Shown in pieces: positions 9,348 to 19,287 of a stretch of 64,000 nucleotides of DNA (position 1 is the first letter of the stretch; each line of letters opens with the position of its first letter). The stretch is taken from assembly GCF_024218775.1 (NCBI RefSeq), contig NZ_CP100404.1:1922001-1986000 (forward strand), given 5' to 3'. The position numbers and the translations under genes are program-made. Origin of the DNA: Haloarcula marina. Its GTDB lineage: Archaea; Halobacteriota; Halobacteria; Halobacteriales; Haloarculaceae. The notes under the pieces were generated by a model, which was not told the DNA's origin, did no database searches, and saw only the letters and a list, made by a program, of their open reading frames with translations.

Positions 9348-10157
9348 ATGACCACCGTCCGGGACCTGCAGGCGATGGCGGGCGAGGAACCGATTACGAT
9401 GCTAACTGCCTACGACGCGGTGATGGCGGGTATCGCCGAGTCCGCGGGCATCGACGTACTCCTCGTCGGCGACAGCATGGGCAACGCCGTCCTCGGGCAC
9501 GACGATACGCTCCCGGTCACCGTCGACGAGACGGCCTCCCACGTCGGGGCCGTCGCGCGCGGGACGGACGAGGCGCTGGTCGTCGCCGATATGCCGTTCC
9601 TCTCTTTTGGCGCCGACGAGGGGCAGAGCGTCGAGAACTGCGGCCGAATGCTCAAAGAGGAGGGCGCGAACGCGGTGAAACTGGAGTCCGGGCCGCACAC
9701 CGTCGAGTTGACCGAAAAACTGGCGCACCTCGGGATTCCGGTGATGGCACACCTCGGCCTGACGCCCCAGAGCGTGAACCAGACGGGGTACACTCAGCAG
9801 GCGGGCGACCGCGAGGAAGCCGAAGAGATTCTCGAACTCGCGACGGCCCACGAGGAGGCTGGCGCGTTCGCCCTCGTCTTAGAACACGTCCCGGCGAACC
9901 TCGCCGCGCAGGTCACCGACGCCATCGACATCCCGACCATCGGCATCGGCGCTGGTGGCGAGTGCGACGGACAGGTCCTCGTGTTCACCGACGTCGTCGG
10001 ACTGGCCGAGTCGAGTCCGCCATTCGCCAAGCAGTTCGGGGACGCCCGCGAGGAGATGCGCGACGCCATCGGCGAGTACGTCGAGGCGGTCGAATCCGGT
10101 TCTTTCCCCGGCGAGGAACACGCCAGCACGAACGAGGAACTGGACGACCTGTACTGA
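9348..10157 (+). CDS. panB: 3-methyl-2-oxobutanoate hydroxymethyltransferase
   Basis: Ketopantoate hydroxymethyltransferase, transferring a hydroxymethyl group from methylene-tetrahydro(methano)pterin to 2-oxoisovalerate in coenzyme A synthesis. The 269-residue TIM barrel shows metal ligands in LLVGDSMGNAVLGHDDTLPV and VVADMPFLSFG, a KLE motif in NAVKLESG, and HLGLTPQSVNQTGY, plus catalytic Glu in ALVLEHVPANLA. The C-terminal tail VLVFTDVVGLAESSPPFAKQ is typical. Start ATG 9348 gives the standard MTTVRDLQ-type N-terminus. Monocistronic between the GNAT gene and bioB. Confidence 0.95.
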   Translation: MTTVRDLQAMAGEEPITMLTAYDAVMAGIAESAGIDVLLVGDSMGNAVLGHDDTLPVTVDETASHVGAVARGTDEALVVADMPFLSFGADEGQSVENCGRMLKEEGANAVKLESGPHTVELTEKLAHLGIPVMAHLGLTPQSVNQTGYTQQAGDREEAEEILELATAHEEAGAFALVLEHVPANLAAQVTDAIDIPTIGIGAGGECDGQVLVFTDVVGLAESSPPFAKQFGDAREEMRDAIGEYVEAVESGSFPGEEHASTNEELDDLY

Positions 10158-10214: not shown

Positions 10215-11330
10215 GTGGTTTACGAGACGGGCAACCGAACGGTAGACGACGCCGTAGCGCGCGTATTGGACGGGGAGCGACTCGACCGCAGGGACGGTCT
10301 GGCGCTCGTCGCGCAACCGGTCGAGGACCTGGCGGCGGGCGCGGACTACGTGCGAACGCGCCTCGGCGACCGGACCGTCGACGCGTGCTCCATCGTGAAC
10401 GCGAAGGCCGGGAACTGTGCTGAGGACTGCGGCTTTTGCGCCCAGTCGGTCCACTTCGACACCGGCATCGACAACTACGGGTTCCTCGGCCCGGAGAAGA
10501 TTCTGGAGGCCGCCGAGCGTGCCGAACGCGACGGGGCACAGCGCTTCGGCATCGTGCTGGCCGAGAAAGGCGTCTCGAAGGAACAGCGACCGGAAGAGTG
10601 GGAGGAGGTACTGGAGGCTATCCGCCTCGTCCGCGACGAGACGGACGTGGAAGTGGACGCCAGCCTCGGCATCCTCACCGAGGAGGAAGCGGCCATCCTC
10701 GCCGAGGAGGGCCTGAACCACTACAACCACAACATCGAGACTTCCCCCCGGTACTTCCCGGAAATCGTCCAGACCCACGACTTCGAGGACCGCGTCGCGA
10801 CGCTGGAAGTCGCGAAGGAGGCCGGGATGGACCTCTGTGCAGGGGTCATCCTCGGCATGGGCGAGACGCCGACCGACCGGGTCGAGGCGGCGATGGCCCT
10901 CCAGGACATCGGCGTCTCATCGCTCCCGGTCAACATCCTCAACCCGGTCGAAGGTACGCCGATGGCCGACCGCGGCTTTCCCGACATCACGACCGAGGAG
11001 GTCATCGAAACCATCGCGGTGTACCGCTTGCTCCACCCGGAGGCCCGCGTCCGCCTGACCGGCGGCCGCGAGGTGAACCTCGACACGGACGGGCAGGTGG
11101 CCGCACTGGAGGCGGGCGCGGACGGCATCCTCACCGGTGATTACCTCACCACTGAAGGTCAGTCACCGGCCGACGACCTCGAAATCGTCGAGCAGGCGGG
11201 CCTCGAACCGAACACGGACGCAAACGAATTCGACCCCGACGAGGTCAGAGCACGCGCGGACGAACAGAGCGACCCCGAGACGGCGGCGGGGACGGCACAG
11301 ACGAAATCAGAACTCCAATCAGACGACTAA
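10215..11330 (+). CDS. bioB: Biotin synthase
   Basis: Radical SAM enzyme inserting sulfur into dethiobiotin. The 371-residue protein carries the radical SAM triad in CAEDCGFCAQS (Cys-x3-Cys-x2-Cys), YNHNIETSPRYFPEI, and the conserved FLNPVEGTP-like LNPVEGTPMAD and RLTGGREVNL regions. A C-terminal acidic tail of about 40 residues follows the catalytic core. GTG 10215 is the chosen start; a TATA-like GTTTTATTC lies at 10180-10188. It leads the biotin cluster and is followed two bases after its stop by the BioU-like gene. Confidence 0.93.
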   Translation: MVYETGNRTVDDAVARVLDGERLDRRDGLALVAQPVEDLAAGADYVRTRLGDRTVDACSIVNAKAGNCAEDCGFCAQSVHFDTGIDNYGFLGPEKILEAAERAERDGAQRFGIVLAEKGVSKEQRPEEWEEVLEAIRLVRDETDVEVDASLGILTEEEAAILAEEGLNHYNHNIETSPRYFPEIVQTHDFEDRVATLEVAKEAGMDLCAGVILGMGETPTDRVEAAMALQDIGVSSLPVNILNPVEGTPMADRGFPDITTEEVIETIAVYRLLHPEARVRLTGGREVNLDTDGQVAALEAGADGILTGDYLTTEGQSPADDLEIVEQAGLEPNTDANEFDPDEVRARADEQSDPETAAGTAQTKSELQSDD

Positions 11331-11332
11331 CT

Positions 11333-12403
11333 ATGGACGACGTACGTTTCGCAGTACTCGGCACCGGCGGCATCGGACGACGAACGCTCGAAGTCTCGCA
11401 GTACAAGGACGGCCTGACGGCCGTGGCGGCCTGTGACCGTAACGGCGTCGCCGTCGACCACGGCGGCCTCGACGTGCCAGAACTGTTGGACGCCACGGAG
11501 GGCAACATCGCGAGCGGGCCACAGGACGGGCCGGGCGATGACCTCGCCACGGACGGCGGCGCGGCCACGGCGGGCGTCAAACAGCACGGCGACGAGGCCG
11601 GAATCGTCGCCAGCGAACAGGGCCGACCGACGGAGACGCCTATCGACGATGTGATAGCCGAGAGCGACGCCATCGACGCCGTCCTCGTCGCGCTTCCCAA
11701 CTTAGAACACGACTTTATCCCCCGCGTGGCCGAACGGTTCGCCGAGGCGGCGTACGAGGGCGTCCTCGTCGACGTGCTCAAACGCTCGCGGGTCATCGGG
11801 ATGCTGGACGACCGGGAGGCGAAACTGAAGGAGTCGGGCATCACGTTCGTCTGCGGCGCGGGCGCGACGCCCGGGTTCCTGACCGGCGCGGCCGCCCTCG
11901 CGGCCCAGTCGTTCGTCGACGTCGAGGAAGTCGAAATCTGGTGGGGCGTCGGCCTCAAGAGCGGGTACGAGGACAACCGCGGCACGGTCCGCGAGGACAT
12001 CGCCCACCTCGACGGCTACGACATCGAGACGGCCCGCGAGATGAGCGACGACGAAATCGAGGCGCTCATCGAGGAGCACGACGGCGTCTTGGAGTTCCAC
12101 GACATGGAACACGCCGACGACGTGTTGCTCGAACGCGCGGGCATCTGCGACGCCGAAGACGTCCACGTCGGCGGCGTTCTGGACGTTCGCTCCGACGAGA
12201 AACCGACGACGACCACCGTCTCGGTGACCGGGACCACCTTCGACGGGGAGACGGGGACGAACACCTTCCAACTCGGCGACGTGACGAGCATGGAGGCCAA
12301 CGTCAACGGCCCGGCGCTTGGCTATCTCAAGGCCGGGGTCCGAAACAACCGCGCGGGCCACTACGGCGTGTTCGGTCCGGCGGACCTGATGCCCGGATTC
12401 TGA
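11333..12403 (+). CDS. BioU-like NAD(P)-dependent oxidoreductase (candidate diaminopelargonate synthase)
   Basis: Rossmann-fold oxidoreductase of the saccharopine-dehydrogenase-like group, 356 residues (VLGTGGIGRRTLE at 8-20). Co-directional with bioB at a two-base gap and followed by bioF-bioD, with no standard bioA in the operon. From family knowledge, BioU in cyanobacteria has this annotation, replaces BioA, and uses one of its own lysines as amino donor in a single-turnover reaction. The Lys in GVLVDVLKRSRV (Lys150) sits just before the FVCGAGATPGFLTGAA domain junction and is my candidate. Residues 60-100 form an acidic insert (SGPQDGPGDD...). The BioU assignment is inference from family and context. 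Confidence 0.7.
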   Translation: MDDVRFAVLGTGGIGRRTLEVSQYKDGLTAVAACDRNGVAVDHGGLDVPELLDATEGNIASGPQDGPGDDLATDGGAATAGVKQHGDEAGIVASEQGRPTETPIDDVIAESDAIDAVLVALPNLEHDFIPRVAERFAEAAYEGVLVDVLKRSRVIGMLDDREAKLKESGITFVCGAGATPGFLTGAAALAAQSFVDVEEVEIWWGVGLKSGYEDNRGTVREDIAHLDGYDIETAREMSDDEIEALIEEHDGVLEFHDMEHADDVLLERAGICDAEDVHVGGVLDVRSDEKPTTTTVSVTGTTFDGETGTNTFQLGDVTSMEANVNGPALGYLKAGVRNNRAGHYGVFGPADLMPGF

Positions 12404-12436: not shown

Positions 12437-13753
12437 TTACCGATTTCCGGCGCGCTCGAACGCGTCGACGGCCTGCCGTACCTCTCGTTCTCGCACGTCA
12501 AGGGGTGGCAGGAATCGGAGCGTCCGATACCCGCAGGGGAGCGTCAGCAGTCCCTCACGGAGACAGTTCTCGACGAGTTCGTCCCGGCGGGCGGGCGTCT
12601 CGAACTCCACGGCGACCATCGCTCCGAGATTTCGCACGTCGGCACAACCGTCGACATCTGTCGCGAGGAGCGCACCCGCCAACTGGTCGCCGCGTTCGGC
12701 GGCGTTGGCCAATAGGTTCTGCGCTTCGATGATGTCGATGGTGAGCGTCCCGACCATCGAGGCGAGGATTGCGCCGGACCCCCACGTCGAGGAGAGGCGA
12801 CCGTTCTCCTCGGGGAATATCTCCTCCCGGCCGACTGTCGCGCCCACGCGGAGCGCCTTGCCGACGGCCAGTACGTCCGGTTCGATGTCGTAGTGGTCCG
12901 CGCCCCACCATTCGCCGGTCCGGCCCACGCCGGACTGAATCTCGTCGGCGACCAGCGGGATGTCGTACTCCTCGCAGACGGCCGCCACGTCGCTCATGAA
13001 GGACTGACTCGGGATTCGGTAGCCCCCCTCTCCTTGCACGGGTTCGAGGATGACGTACGCGACTTCCGCCGGGTCGACGTTGCCCGCCGGGCCGAGTTTG
13101 CGGCGTAACTGCGATGGTTCGCCGTCCGGGAAGAAGCCACAGGAACAGGTGTCGGGGTCGCAGGTCCGGTCGTCGCAGTACGGGAGCGAAGCGATGCCGG
13201 ACACCTCCGGGAAGTCCCGTCGGTGGACCGCCTTCGAGCGGTTGAGCGAGAGTGCCCCGAGCGTGCGGCCGTGGAACGCCCCCTCGAAGGTGAGGCCGTA
13301 CTTCGCGCCCTCGCGGTAGTCGTAACACACTTTGATGGCGTTCTCGACGGCCTCCGCGCCGGAGTTCGAGAGGAAGACGGTATCGTGACCGTCGGGCGCG
13401 ATGTCGACGAGACGGTGCATCAGTTCCGTTGGTCCCGGCAAATCGCCCGCGCTGGCGTAGAAGTCCTGCCCGCCGAACTTCAGCGGGTCGACCATATCGA
13501 ACTCGTCCAGACGGTCCAACAGCGCGGGGTTGTTGTAGCCAAGCGGCGCGGAGGCGACGTGGGCGGTGAAATCGAGCAGAACGTTCCCGTCGACGTCGAC
13601 GCAGTACGGGCCGACGGCGTCCTCGGTCACGTCCCAGACGAACTCGTAGACGTGCGTCGACGGGGCGGCGACTTCGTGGTGGTAGTCGGCAATCTCGCGG
13701 GCCGTTTCGCCCGGAAACGAATCTACGTCGGGCGCGGCGGTGTCCCGGTCCAT
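12437..13753 (-). CDS. Class III PLP aminotransferase (GABA/lysine-type)
   Basis: Fold-type I aminotransferase, 438 residues, of the class III (omega-aminotransferase) group. PLP site features: SNSGAEAVENAIK, TFEGAFHGRTLGALSL, PLVADEIQSGVGRTGEWWG with the pyridine-binding Asp, and Lys in VLAVGKALRVGA. An unusual cysteine cluster C-x4-C-x4-C-x-C (YCDDRTCDPDTCSCGFF) lies mid-protein. It is transcribed opposite to the biotin genes, between the BioU-like gene and bioF. It could act in lysine or 4-aminobutyrate metabolism or supply the BioA step; its location suggests, but does not prove, a biotin link. Confidence 0.75.
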   Translation of the reverse strand: MDRDTAAPDVDSFPGETAREIADYHHEVAAPSTHVYEFVWDVTEDAVGPYCVDVDGNVLLDFTAHVASAPLGYNNPALLDRLDEFDMVDPLKFGGQDFYASAGDLPGPTELMHRLVDIAPDGHDTVFLSNSGAEAVENAIKVCYDYREGAKYGLTFEGAFHGRTLGALSLNRSKAVHRRDFPEVSGIASLPYCDDRTCDPDTCSCGFFPDGEPSQLRRKLGPAGNVDPAEVAYVILEPVQGEGGYRIPSQSFMSDVAAVCEEYDIPLVADEIQSGVGRTGEWWGADHYDIEPDVLAVGKALRVGATVGREEIFPEENGRLSSTWGSGAILASMVGTLTIDIIEAQNLLANAAERGDQLAGALLATDVDGCADVRNLGAMVAVEFETPARRDELVENCLREGLLTLPCGYRTLRFLPPLDVREREVRQAVDAFERAGNR

Positions 13754-13868: not shown

Positions 13869-15068
13869 ATGACACACGGGTTCGACCTCGACGGTCGGCT
13901 TCGTCAGCGAGAGTCGGCGGACCTCCGGCGGGACTTGGCGGTGGCAGAGCGCGTCGGGGACCGGACGCGCTTCGCCGACGACCCGAAAGGGGGACGCATC
14001 AAGTTCGGCGGGGAGGCGGTGGTCTTCGCCGCGAACAACTATCTCGGACTGGCCGACGACGCGCGGGTCCAGCGGGCGGCCGAACTCGGCGCGCGCACGG
14101 TCGGGACGGGGGCGGGCGCCTCGCGCCTCGTCACCGGCGATACGCGGATTCACCGGGCGCTCGAACGGGATTTGGCGGCGTGTAAGGGAACCGAGCGAGC
14201 GCTGGTGTTCTCCTCGGGCTACGCCGCCAACGTCGGCACTATCGACGCGCTCTCGCCCGACGTGGTCTTCTCGGACGAACTGAACCACGCGTCGATAATC
14301 GACGGGTGTCGGGTCGGGGCGAGCGAGACGGTGGTGTACGACCACTGCGACGCCGACGACCTGCGGGCGAAGATGGCTGAACGGGCCGAAGAGGGGGCCA
14401 GCGACGAGTCGTGGCTGGTCGTCACGGACTCGGTGTTCTCGATGGACGGCGACGTGGCCCCCCTCGAACTGCTCTGTGACGCCGCCGAGGAGCACGGCGC
14501 GTGGCTGATGGTGGACGAAGCACACGCCACCGGCCTGTTCGGTGAGGGCGGCGGTATCGTCCAGCGAGAGGGGCTGAGCGACCGCGTCGACGTGCAGTTG
14601 GGGACGCTCTCGAAGGCGCTCGCCAGTCAGGGCGGCTACGTGGCTGGCGACGAGGCGCTCGTCGAACATCTGGTGAACGCCGCGCGGTCGTTCGTCTTCT
14701 CGACCGGCCTCGCCCCGCCCGCCGCCGCGGCCGCCCGCGAATCGCTCCGTATCGCTCGCGAGACGAATCAGGTCGAGCGGTTGTGGGACAACGTCGAGAC
14801 CCTCCGCGAGGGGCTGTCGGAGATGGGGTACGACGTGCTCGGCGAGACCCACGTCCTCCCGGTCCTCGTCGGTGACCGGACGGACGCGTTGGAACTGGCC
14901 GAGCGACTGCGCGCTGACGGTGTCGTCGCACCCGCGATTCGGCCGCCGACGGTTCCCGACGGCACCTCCCGAATCCGAGTCGCGCCCACGGCGACCCACA
15001 CGGCTGAGGATATCGCTCGCTGTCTCGACGCGTTCGAGACGGCGGGCGCGGAGGTGGGACTGCTGTGA
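13869..15068 (+). CDS. bioF: 8-amino-7-oxononanoate synthase
   Basis: PLP-dependent alpha-oxoamine synthase joining pimeloyl thioester and alanine to KAPA, the first committed biotin step. The 399-residue protein has the classic motifs FAANNYLGLADD, GTGAGASRLVTG, FSSGYAANVGTI, SDELNHASIIDG, WLMVDEAHATGLFGE and the PLP Lys in LGTLSKALASQGGYVAG. The start ATG 13869 gives MTHGFDLDGRL. The TGA stop overlaps the GTG of bioD by four bases. Glycine C-acetyltransferase is the nearest alternative, excluded by context. Confidence 0.92.
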   Translation: MTHGFDLDGRLRQRESADLRRDLAVAERVGDRTRFADDPKGGRIKFGGEAVVFAANNYLGLADDARVQRAAELGARTVGTGAGASRLVTGDTRIHRALERDLAACKGTERALVFSSGYAANVGTIDALSPDVVFSDELNHASIIDGCRVGASETVVYDHCDADDLRAKMAERAEEGASDESWLVVTDSVFSMDGDVAPLELLCDAAEEHGAWLMVDEAHATGLFGEGGGIVQREGLSDRVDVQLGTLSKALASQGGYVAGDEALVEHLVNAARSFVFSTGLAPPAAAAARESLRIARETNQVERLWDNVETLREGLSEMGYDVLGETHVLPVLVGDRTDALELAERLRADGVVAPAIRPPTVPDGTSRIRVAPTATHTAEDIARCLDAFETAGAEVGLL

Positions 15069-15745
15069 CGACGACGGTGAACGACGGTCTGTTCGTCGTC
15101 GGAACCGGAACCGGGGTCGGCAAAACCGTCGTCACGGCGGGATTGACGGGATGGCTGCGCGCTCGCGGACGCGACGCCATCGCGGTCAAACCCTGTCAGA
15201 CCGGCTATCCGCCCGACGACGACGCCGGGTTCGTCGCCGAGGCCTGCGGGACGGAGTCGGCGGCGACCTGCCTGCGGCGACTCGAACCGGCGCTCGCGCC
15301 CGCCGTGGCCGCCGACGTGGCGGATGCCGACCTCGCCTACGACGAGATACTGTCCGGCGTCGAGGACGCCATCGGCCGCCACGATGTCGGGGTGGTCGAG
15401 GGAATCGGCGGCCTCCGGGTCCCGCTGGCCGACGGCCGAGAGGTCGTCGACCTCGTCGCGGACCTCGGTTTCCCGACGGTGGTCGTCGCTCGGTCCGGGT
15501 TGGGGACGTTGAACCACACCGGCATGACCGTCGACGCCCTCGAACGGCGGGACGTTCCCATCTGCGGCGTCGTCCTGAACGAGTACGAGGGCGCGACGAC
15601 GGCCGAGCGCACGAACCCTGCGGTCATCGAGTCGATGACCGGTTGCCCGGTCTGGACGATGCCGCCGCTGGACCTGACCGACCCGGCGGCGGCGATTACG
15701 GGCGTCCAGTCGCACCTCCCCGAAGACATCGTCGCCACTGGCTGA
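15065..15745 (+). CDS. bioD: Dethiobiotin synthase
   Basis: ATP-dependent ligase closing the ureido ring of dethiobiotin from 7,8-diaminopelargonate and CO2. The 226-residue protein opens with the P-loop VVGTGTGVGKTVVTAGL; AVKPCQTGYPPDDD supplies the Lys and Thr that bind diamine, and VGVVEGIGGLRVPLADG is the Mg/carbamate region with Glu-Gly-x-Gly-Gly. GTG start at 15065 overlaps bioF. It closes the bioB-bioU-like / bioF-bioD pathway set in this window. Confidence 0.93.
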   Translation: MTTTVNDGLFVVGTGTGVGKTVVTAGLTGWLRARGRDAIAVKPCQTGYPPDDDAGFVAEACGTESAATCLRRLEPALAPAVAADVADADLAYDEILSGVEDAIGRHDVGVVEGIGGLRVPLADGREVVDLVADLGFPTVVVARSGLGTLNHTGMTVDALERRDVPICGVVLNEYEGATTAERTNPAVIESMTGCPVWTMPPLDLTDPAAAITGVQSHLPEDIVATG

Positions 15746-15945: not shown

Positions 15946-17022
15946 TCAGTCGTCCAACCCGAGCAGGGAGTCGAGGTCAACGCCGTCGTCGAGCAAGTCC
16001 TGCATCCGCTCGACGGTCCCGGCATCCCGCGTGCGCCCCGAGCGAAGCACGTCTTCCACCCTGTCGATGGTCGTCCGCGTGTCCGATTGGACCAAGAGGA
16101 TGGGGACGTTCTCATCTTCCGCACGGCCGAGGACGGCGCTCGCCGGGCGGTAGCCGCCGGTCAGCAGGAGCACCTTGATACCGCTCGCTTCGAGCGCGGC
16201 GGTCTGGACCTCCGAGCGGTCACCGCCGCTAATCATCACGGCGTCACGGGTGCGGCGGAACTGGTCCAGCGCGCTGTTGCCGCCCATCGCCCCGACGGTG
16301 AACCGTTCGACGTGCACGTCCGTCGACGCGTCCGCGGTCAGCACGTCCGCGCCGAGGCTCCGCGCGAGGTCCGCGACAGTGATGCCCGCGAGGGATTGGA
16401 CGCGCGGAAGCGCCCCGAACACCGGCACGCCGCGTCCTTCGAGGAAGGGGAGCACATCGTCGGTCAGTTCCTCCATCGCGGCGTCGGTGACGCCGTTGAA
16501 CAGCACCCCAGCGAGACGGTCCCCGAGCGACCGGGCCGCGGCGAGGACTTCGTCGGCGTCCCCCGCCGTCGCGTACCCGCAGACGAGGAGGACGCGCGCG
16601 TCCAGCGCGTCGGCGATGTCGGCGTCCGTGAGGTCGACGATACCACCGGTCTCCAGCCTGTCGCTCCCCTCGACGACCATCAGGTCTTTGCCCTCCGAGA
16701 GGGCCTGGAAGTTGTCGACGACGCGCCCGCGGAGTTCGTCGGGGTCCTCGCGGCCGCGGATGGCCTCTTGGACGAACGTCGGCGAGTAGACGATGGGTTC
16801 CATCTCGTGGACTTCGGCGTCCAATCCGAGCAGTTCACGAGCCAGCATAGGGTCCTCGTCGCGGGTCTTGCCGACCGCGCTCTGGAGGCGGGTCCCCTTC
16901 GGCTTCATGTAGCCGACCTCGTGACCGGCGTCTTGGGCCGACTTCGCCAGCGCGAGGGTGATTGCCGTCTTGCCGATACCTTCCTGAGTCGAGGTGACGA
17001 GTAGCGTGTTTGAGTCGGTCAT
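15946..17022 (-). CDS. P-loop / DRTGG-domain phosphotransacetylase-like protein
   Basis: 358-residue protein with an N-terminal dethiobiotin-synthetase-like P-loop domain (LLVTSTQEGIGKTAITLALA, about residues 7-26; VVEGSDRLETGG) and a C-terminal DRTGG domain (VERFTVGAMGGNSALDQF; KVLLLTGGYRP). This arrangement is the N-terminal regulatory half of large bacterial phosphotransacetylases, without the catalytic acetyl-transfer domain. Its ATG overlaps the stop of the ADP-forming acetate-CoA ligase by four bases, a pairing I know from other haloarchaea. A sensory or allosteric role in acetate/acetyl-CoA balance is inferred; enzymatic activity is not established. Confidence 0.8.
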   Translation of the reverse strand: MTDSNTLLVTSTQEGIGKTAITLALAKSAQDAGHEVGYMKPKGTRLQSAVGKTRDEDPMLARELLGLDAEVHEMEPIVYSPTFVQEAIRGREDPDELRGRVVDNFQALSEGKDLMVVEGSDRLETGGIVDLTDADIADALDARVLLVCGYATAGDADEVLAAARSLGDRLAGVLFNGVTDAAMEELTDDVLPFLEGRGVPVFGALPRVQSLAGITVADLARSLGADVLTADASTDVHVERFTVGAMGGNSALDQFRRTRDAVMISGGDRSEVQTAALEASGIKVLLLTGGYRPASAVLGRAEDENVPILLVQSDTRTTIDRVEDVLRSGRTRDAGTVERMQDLLDDGVDLDSLLGLDD

Positions 17023-19124
17023 AGTTCCTCCTGGTCGAGGGTGAGTCGCAGGTCGACCGCCTGCACGCCGTCGGGCGTGGCGACGAGCGGGTTGATGTCC
17101 AGTTCGACGATGGCCGGGAAGTCCGTGACGAGTTGTGACAGTCGCTGAACGGCGTCGACGAGGGCGTCCTCGTCGACCGGGTCGCGGCCGCGTGCGCCGC
17201 GTAGGAGCGGCGCGGAGTCGATGTCGTCCAGCATTCCTCTGGCCTCGGGTTCGCTCACGGGAGCGACTCTGACAGTGTTATCTTCGAGGACCTCCACGAA
17301 AATACCACCGAGGCCAAAGAGCAGGAGCGGGCCGAACTGCGGGTCCCGGTTCATCCCGAGGATGGTCTCGGTGCCCGAGTCGAGGTCGACCATCTCCTGC
17401 ACTTGGACGCCGAGGACGGTGGCGTCTCGCTGGTAGTTGCGCGCGCGAACGACCAAGTCCTCGTAGGTGTCTCGGACTTCCGCCGGCGAGACGCCGACTT
17501 CGACGCCGCCGATGTCGGACTTGTGGAGAATGTCCGGGCTGACGATTTTCATCACCACGTCGTCGCCGATTTCCTCGGCGAGCGCTTCGGCCTCGCTCGG
17601 CGAGTCGACGACGCCGCCCTGCGGCGTCGGGATACCGTAGGCGTCGAGCAGTTCCATCGCCTCCACGCCGAGGCGGTTCGTATCGCGGCGCGCGGCGGAT
17701 TCGAGAATCTCGCGGGCGCGTTCCTCGTCCACGTCGAACGTGGTCGGGGGTTCGTACTCGCGGGCCTGAATCTCGCTGTAGTCCCAGAGCGCGTCGAGGC
17801 TGTCGACGGCCCGCGCCGGGTCGAAGTAGTTCGGGATGCCCGCCTCGCTGAGCACGTCCTGTCCCGCGCCGACGGACTTCCCGCCCATCAGCGTCGTCGC
17901 GACGGGTATCTCGCTCTCCCGCTGTTTCTCGACGACCACGTCGGCCAGTTCCTCGAAGGAGAGGACGGCCGTCGGGCAGGCGACGACGACGGCCATCGAG
18001 ACGTTGTCGTCGTCGAGCACCGTTTCGAGGGCGATTTCGAACCGCTGTGCGGGGGCGTCCCCGATGATGTCGACGGGATTGTAGATGTTGGCCTCGTCGG
18101 GCATCATCTCGCCGAGACGGTCCAGCGTCGACTCCTCGAACTCCGCGAGGGAGAGGTCCGAGTCCCCGACAGCGTCGGTGGTCATCACGCCCGGGCCACC
18201 GGCGTTCGTGACGATGGCGATTTCGTCGCCGTCGGGTAAGGGCTGGCCCGAGAGAATCTGCGCGAAGTCGAACAGCTCTTGGACCGACTCCACGCGGAGC
18301 GTCCCGGCCTGTTCCAGACCGGCCTCGTAGGCCCGCTCGGACCCCGCCATCGCTCCGGTGTGGGAGGCGGCGGCCGAGGCCCCGGCGTCCGTTCGGCCGG
18401 ATTTCACGAGGACGATAGGGGTATCCTGCGTGACCTCGCGGGCCGTCTGGATGAATCGGCTCCCGTCCGCGATGTCTTCGAGGTAGCCGAGGATGACCTC
18501 CGTCTCGGGGTCCTCGCCCCACTCGGCGACGAAGTCGCCCTCGTCGAGGATAGCCTTGTTGCCGAGCGAGACGATGTCCTTGAAGCCCACGTCGCGTTCC
18601 GCGGCCCAGTCGAGAACGGCCGTGACGAACGCCCCCGACTGACTCATGAAGGAGATGTCCCCTTCGGTCGCCATCTCGTTGCCGAAGGTGGCGTTCAGGC
18701 CTTTCGGCGTCGACATGACGCCGAGGCTGTTCGGGCCGACGAGGTTCATGTCGTACTCCTCGGCCGCGGCCCGCAGGTCCCGTTCGCGGGCCGCGCCCTC
18801 GCTCCCCGTCTCGCCGAATCCGGCAGTGATGACGACGACGTTGGCGATGCCGTTCGCCCCGGCATCTCTGATAGCTTGGACGGCCACGTCCGGTGGCACG
18901 ACGACGACGGCCACGTCGATACGCTGGGAGGCGTCGACATCGCCGATGCCGTCGTAGCAGGTGAGACCCATCACCTCGTCCTTGTAGGGATTCACCGCTA
19001 CGACCTCGCCGTCGAACGATTCCAGTAGATTCGCCGTGATGGCGCGACCGACCGACCCCTCCGAGTCGGTGGCCCCGATGACGGCGACGCGTTCCGGCGC
19101 GAATAGCGTCGATAGTCGTCCCAT
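17019..19124 (-). CDS. Acetate-CoA ligase (ADP-forming), fused alpha-beta
   Basis: Converts acetyl-CoA, ADP and phosphate to acetate, CoA and ATP; the main archaeal route of ATP synthesis from acetyl-CoA. The 701-residue protein joins a CoA-binding/ligase alpha half (VAVIGATDSEGSVGRAI; phospho-His in SHTGAMAGSERAYEAG) to an ATP-grasp beta half from about residue 480 (LLDAYGIPTPQGGVVDSPSE; DIGGVEVGVSP). The start ATG 19124 (MGRLSTLFAPERVAVIGATD) is preferred to an in-frame ATG 27 codons upstream, whose extra peptide is basic and unlike haloarchaeal protein. Translationally coupled to the DRTGG protein. Confidence 0.93.
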   Translation of the reverse strand: MGRLSTLFAPERVAVIGATDSEGSVGRAITANLLESFDGEVVAVNPYKDEVMGLTCYDGIGDVDASQRIDVAVVVVPPDVAVQAIRDAGANGIANVVVITAGFGETGSEGAARERDLRAAAEEYDMNLVGPNSLGVMSTPKGLNATFGNEMATEGDISFMSQSGAFVTAVLDWAAERDVGFKDIVSLGNKAILDEGDFVAEWGEDPETEVILGYLEDIADGSRFIQTAREVTQDTPIVLVKSGRTDAGASAAASHTGAMAGSERAYEAGLEQAGTLRVESVQELFDFAQILSGQPLPDGDEIAIVTNAGGPGVMTTDAVGDSDLSLAEFEESTLDRLGEMMPDEANIYNPVDIIGDAPAQRFEIALETVLDDDNVSMAVVVACPTAVLSFEELADVVVEKQRESEIPVATTLMGGKSVGAGQDVLSEAGIPNYFDPARAVDSLDALWDYSEIQAREYEPPTTFDVDEERAREILESAARRDTNRLGVEAMELLDAYGIPTPQGGVVDSPSEAEALAEEIGDDVVMKIVSPDILHKSDIGGVEVGVSPAEVRDTYEDLVVRARNYQRDATVLGVQVQEMVDLDSGTETILGMNRDPQFGPLLLFGLGGIFVEVLEDNTVRVAPVSEPEARGMLDDIDSAPLLRGARGRDPVDEDALVDAVQRLSQLVTDFPAIVELDINPLVATPDGVQAVDLRLTLDQEEL

Positions 19125-19287
19125 ACCTCTACCTCGTCCTTCGTGTCGTAGCGGATAATACCTGCCGACATCTCCCACAGACCGGGAATACACACGGTCT
19201 ATCACGCATATCCAGGGTCGTACTGTAGGACCGGCGAGTGACGCTCGTTCGCCGCGGTTTTTGTCGTGTGTCCCGTAGCCGAAGCCG

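Follow-up and report, generated by a model that had tools for sequence, protein, structure and literature searches.

The DNA analysed here is a window of 64,000 nucleotides from Haloarcula marina (the whole stretch, contig NZ_CP100404.1, positions 1,922,001 to 1,986,000 of the forward strand), in which a gene for a BioU ortholog directly follows bioB and is itself followed by an inverted aminotransferase gene, bioF and bioD. The features are as follows, in window positions:

9348-10157: panB, ketopantoate hydroxymethyltransferase, upstream of bioB
10215..11330, plus strand: bioB, biotin synthase (radical SAM, 371 aa); TIGR00433 with E 2.8e-102 and 342 bits against a cut-off of 225; Radical_SAM and BATS domains
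11333..12403, plus strand: bioU, 356 aa, intact open reading frame; phmmer, NF047886 and Foldseek matches to BioU
11360..11377, plus strand: GTGGIG dinucleotide-binding loop, residues 10-15; GxGGxG, NAD(P)-binding Rossmann loop
11504..11611, plus strand: variable Gly/Ala/Ser/Thr-rich linker, residues 58-93, marked by length variation and low pLDDT
11780..11782, plus strand: codon of Lys150, predicted amino donor (corresponding to Lys124 of Slr0355); Lys in 86/86 sequences
12110..12112, plus strand: codon of His260, predicted active-site His (corresponding to His233 of Slr0355); His in 86/86 sequences
12437..13753, minus strand: class-III aminotransferase gene between bioU and bioF; Aminotran_3
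13869..15068, plus strand: bioF; TIGR00858 as the best family, E 6.3e-122, 407 bits, slightly under the cut-off of 426
15065..15745, plus strand: bioD, dethiobiotin synthase (226 aa); TIGR00347 with 108 bits against a cut-off of 83.3

The stop codon of bioB (TAA, 11328-11330) is separated from the ATG of bioU by the two bases ‘ct’, and bioD overlaps bioF by 4 bases. A sequence-only reading of this DNA had placed an oxidoreductase gene two bases past bioB, exactly where the reading frame was found. It had also placed this gene ahead of bioF-bioD, which holds in so far as both genes lie downstream, but bioF is not adjacent, since the minus-strand aminotransferase gene intervenes. Further downstream, a minus-strand pair (15946-19205) encodes a DRTGG/AAA_26 protein and a 728-aa ADP-forming acyl-CoA ligase, a relative of acetate-CoA ligase; as a speculation, this ligase may serve in pimelate activation. 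A whole-genome search for BioW (PF03744), which would have accounted for the pimeloyl group used by BioF, found none in the window's own genome (G000), and this weighs against the pathway reading given below.

When the bioU product was searched against all PDB chains by phmmer, the only significant matches were to Slr0355 of Synechocystis sp. PCC 6803, which is BioU, (S)-8-amino-7-oxononanoate synthase (four distinct sequences, E = 6e-81 for 6ir4 to 2e-79), with 142 of 321 aligned positions identical (44%). A Pfam search of the same protein gave nothing at E 0.001, and an NCBIfam search gave a single match, the BioU model NF047886 (E = 2.1e-99). Its score of 333 bits is under the curated cut-off of 600, so that NCBI's own rule would not name the protein BioU. 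This cut-off is a very strict naming threshold and does not represent any functional feature; it is apparently tuned to the cyanobacterial clade, because all 74 strong haloarchaeal matches in a class-wide sweep score below it. A model of the protein was built with AlphaFold2 from a 30-sequence alignment (mean pLDDT 81, pTM 0.81) and compared with the PDB by Foldseek, in which the five BioU entries (6ir4, 6itd, 6k36, 6k37 and 6k38) ranked at the top, all with E 4e-38 or better and with rmsd of 2.3-2.4 Å. The best of them was 6itd (E = 9.5e-41, TM = 0.86 and 0.93 when normalized by query and target, respectively), and the fold is shared over nearly the whole length. The suggestion of a BioU-like enzyme was thus borne out in both sequence and predicted fold, and the product of 11333-12403 is a BioU ortholog, an archaeal member of a known family and not a new kind of enzyme. 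The BioU family has been known since 2020, and haloarchaeal homologs have been mentioned before; among the literature searched, no paper on archaeal BioU was found.

Active-site residues were located in an alignment of 86 rows, in which the window protein is joined by 84 further sequences from haloarchaea and by the stretch of crystallised Slr0355 printed by HMMER. The glycines of the dinucleotide-binding loop (G10, G12, G13 and G15) are conserved in Slr0355, and at least 84 of the 85 haloarchaeal homologs have them as well. Lys150, which sits within VDVLKRSRV, had been named beforehand as the candidate donor, and its conservation relative to cyanobacterial BioU as the check to be made; it aligns with Lys124 and is kept in every row, so that the loss of the donor Lys, which would have spoken against BioU, was not observed. 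The BioU chains in the PDB differ from one another at two positions in the compared stretch, and these lie opposite Lys150 and His260: the former is Ala in 6itd and 6k37 (K124A in the PDB titles) and the latter is Ala in 6k38 (H233A). The window protein has eight lysines. Only two of them, Lys150 and Lys290, are invariant, and the former corresponds to position 124. The C-terminal region TSM.AN..GPA.GY is also shared with Slr0355, whereas other residues are specific to the haloarchaeal class, for example the WWGVGLKSGY segment.

The window protein also differs from Slr0355 in the linker between G57 and I104, which is longer (46 vs 23 residues) and predicted to be disordered (residues 56-93 have pLDDT values under 50). 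The shortest such spacing in the homologs is 18 residues and the longest 81, so that the length varies between haloarchaeal BioU loci as well. An unusual acidic insertion had been proposed at residues 60-100; on the contrary, Asp and Glu make up 17% of residues 58-103 compared to 20% of the rest of the protein, and Gly, Ala, Ser and Thr make up 48% compared to 32% elsewhere. Judging from composition, length range and predicted disorder, we rejected the insertion as a special feature and regard it as an ordinary linker.

The distribution of bioU was surveyed by scanning GTDB representatives with a haloarchaeal BioU protein as query, whose reach does not extend to distant taxa, and 80 loci were obtained, all haloarchaeal by record title (L002-L081, including Haloarcula, Halosimplex, Natrinema and Haloferax). 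Their BioU proteins show 68-94% identity and the same catalytic residues, and in 74 of the 80, as in the window, bioB, bioU, bioF and bioD form one group. The six exceptions are without bioB, or without bioF and bioD, in the stretch examined, some of them being at contig ends. Clustering of the neighbouring genes in the 80-odd loci gave no consistent partner beyond bioB, bioF and bioD, with some clusters inflated by spurious overlapping reading frames. In a sample of 194 genomes of the class, strong bioU matches were found in 74 (about two fifths), bioD in 73 and bioB over the cut-off in 87; bioU and bioD occurred together in 73 genomes, bioU alone in one and bioD alone in none (Fisher P = 2e-53, a value that is illustrative only, as neither common descent nor linkage within one cluster is taken into account). 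BioA over the curated cut-off (TIGR00508, 405 bits) was found in none of the 194 genomes, the window's own included. A phylum-wide draw of 197 genomes gave strong bioU matches in 8, all from the window's own order. Like the host of Slr0355, the haloarchaeal host is thus without bioA; on the other hand, the compact bioB-bioU-bioF-bioD cluster distinguishes the window gene from its Synechocystis counterpart.

In Synechocystis, BioU couples 8-amino-7-oxononanoate (AON) to its lysine using NAD(P)H, carboxylates the conjugate and sets the diaminononanoate carbamate free using NAD(P)+, by which the lysine loses its amino group (PMC12915131; PMC7133116), and cyanobacteria have either BioU or BioA, one of the two (PMC12903740). 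Orthology, fold, the donor Lys and the His, the operon context, co-occurrence with bioD and the lack of a recognisable bioA are together best explained by BioU replacing BioA. By analogy with the characterised Synechocystis enzyme, we infer that the haloarchaeal ortholog very probably takes BioA's place in biotin synthesis and does so by suicide chemistry, with a single turnover and the same product. By homology, 8-amino-7-oxononanoate supplied by BioF would react with the epsilon-amino group of Lys150 of the protein itself to form an imine, which would be reduced with NAD(P)H. The bound diaminononanoate would then be carboxylated by BioU, and an NAD(P)+-dependent step would release 7,8-diaminononanoate carbamate to BioD. 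Lys150 would be left as allysine, so that each protein molecule would be expected to turn over only once. Retention of bioD alongside bioU fits this scheme, because BioD would still be needed for ring closure. The step filled would be that of BioA (adenosylmethionine-8-amino-7-oxononanoate transaminase), namely provision of the 7-amino group of diaminononanoate, although BioA has an unrelated PLP fold, is multi-turnover and uses S-adenosylmethionine as amino donor in E. coli. Biotin synthesis could in this way be completed in haloarchaea that have bioB, bioF and bioD without a recognisable bioA, and a rare family of enzymes that work only once would then extend through a large class of archaea. 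Both family and mechanism are already established, and the prediction made from the sequence is sound.

The alternative that survives best agrees with this assignment in family and step and differs in turnover: the haloarchaeal enzyme would be multi-turnover, either by using a free amino donor (e.g. lysine) or by having its allysine re-aminated or repaired. We consider this unlikely. Class-specific residues unlike those of Slr0355, such as R153, W204 and S210-G211-Y212, would leave room for altered chemistry, but the donor Lys is identical in all sequences compared, as would be expected of a protein that donates the amino group itself, and the 80-odd loci show no additional reductase or aminotransferase gene that regularly accompanies bioU. 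If it were true, a suicide reaction would have been turned into true catalysis, and the salt-adapted homologs offer material for asking if BioU is always single-turnover.

A second alternative, to which we give very little weight, is that BioA is in fact replaced by the inverted class-III aminotransferase, the BioU homolog serving another role. In favour of this, the aminotransferase shares the PLP class of BioA and is located within the cluster of biotin genes. However, an aminotransferase between bioU and bioF was found, apart from the window, in only 3 of the 80 loci, those of close relatives (L002, L004 and L005), whereas in the class sample no genome has bioD without bioU. The protein scores 164 bits against the bioA model, far from the cut-off of 405, and its strand is opposite to that of the operon. 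Moreover, other genomes of the family, G156, G159, G165 and G180 among them, carry relatives about 56-65% identical to it, and these four are without bioU and bioD. Being a lineage-specific insertion with such relatives, the aminotransferase is unlikely to be BioA, and its distribution, score and strand led us to reject this candidate. Most simply read, a gene unrelated to the pathway has recently been inserted here; lying on the opposite strand, it may prevent bioF-bioD from being co-transcribed with bioB-bioU.

Least probable of all, and hardly tenable, is that the window protein acts on an unrelated substrate, as a dehydrogenase of the same broad fold for saccharopine, lysine or diaminopimelate, since the meso-diaminopimelate-type and lysine dehydrogenases, although sharing a Rossmann-type NAD(P) domain plus a catalytic domain (hence the likeness to the ‘saccharopine-dehydrogenase-like’ label) and ranking as the next folds after BioU (E ~1e-10 to 1e-8, the best at 2e-10), show only ~10-16% identity, TM of ~0.5 and rmsd of ~9-13 Å and act on different substrates, and since the operon context and bioD co-occurrence are specific to biotin and the donor Lys and His are invariant.

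The BioU assignment is further supported by Haloferax mediterranei: in an Lsm mutant under nitrogen starvation, HFX_5076 (bioD), HFX_5077 (bioF) and HFX_5079 (bioB) decrease together (PMC10779274), and the gap at HFX_5078 would fit bioU by gene order. Natronomonas pharaonis, which has three or more biotin genes, is reported to be prototrophic for biotin, whereas Natrialba magadii, which lacks them, is an auxotroph (PMC3403918).

Halorientalis salina NEN8 (loci L036 and L050) carries two bioU genes, the second of which follows a bioB without adjacent bioF or bioD. Fourteen sampled genomes of the class (e.g. G033, G066, G068, G101 and G138) have bioB over the cut-off and neither bioU nor bioD, which suggests dethiobiotin salvage or another use of BioB. 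In PLSDB, bioU was found in seven haloarchaeal plasmid records (H1-H7; megaplasmid copies), where it is annotated as ‘transcriptional regulator’ in six and as ‘hypothetical protein’ in one; a better-calibrated BioU model would therefore correct many annotations.
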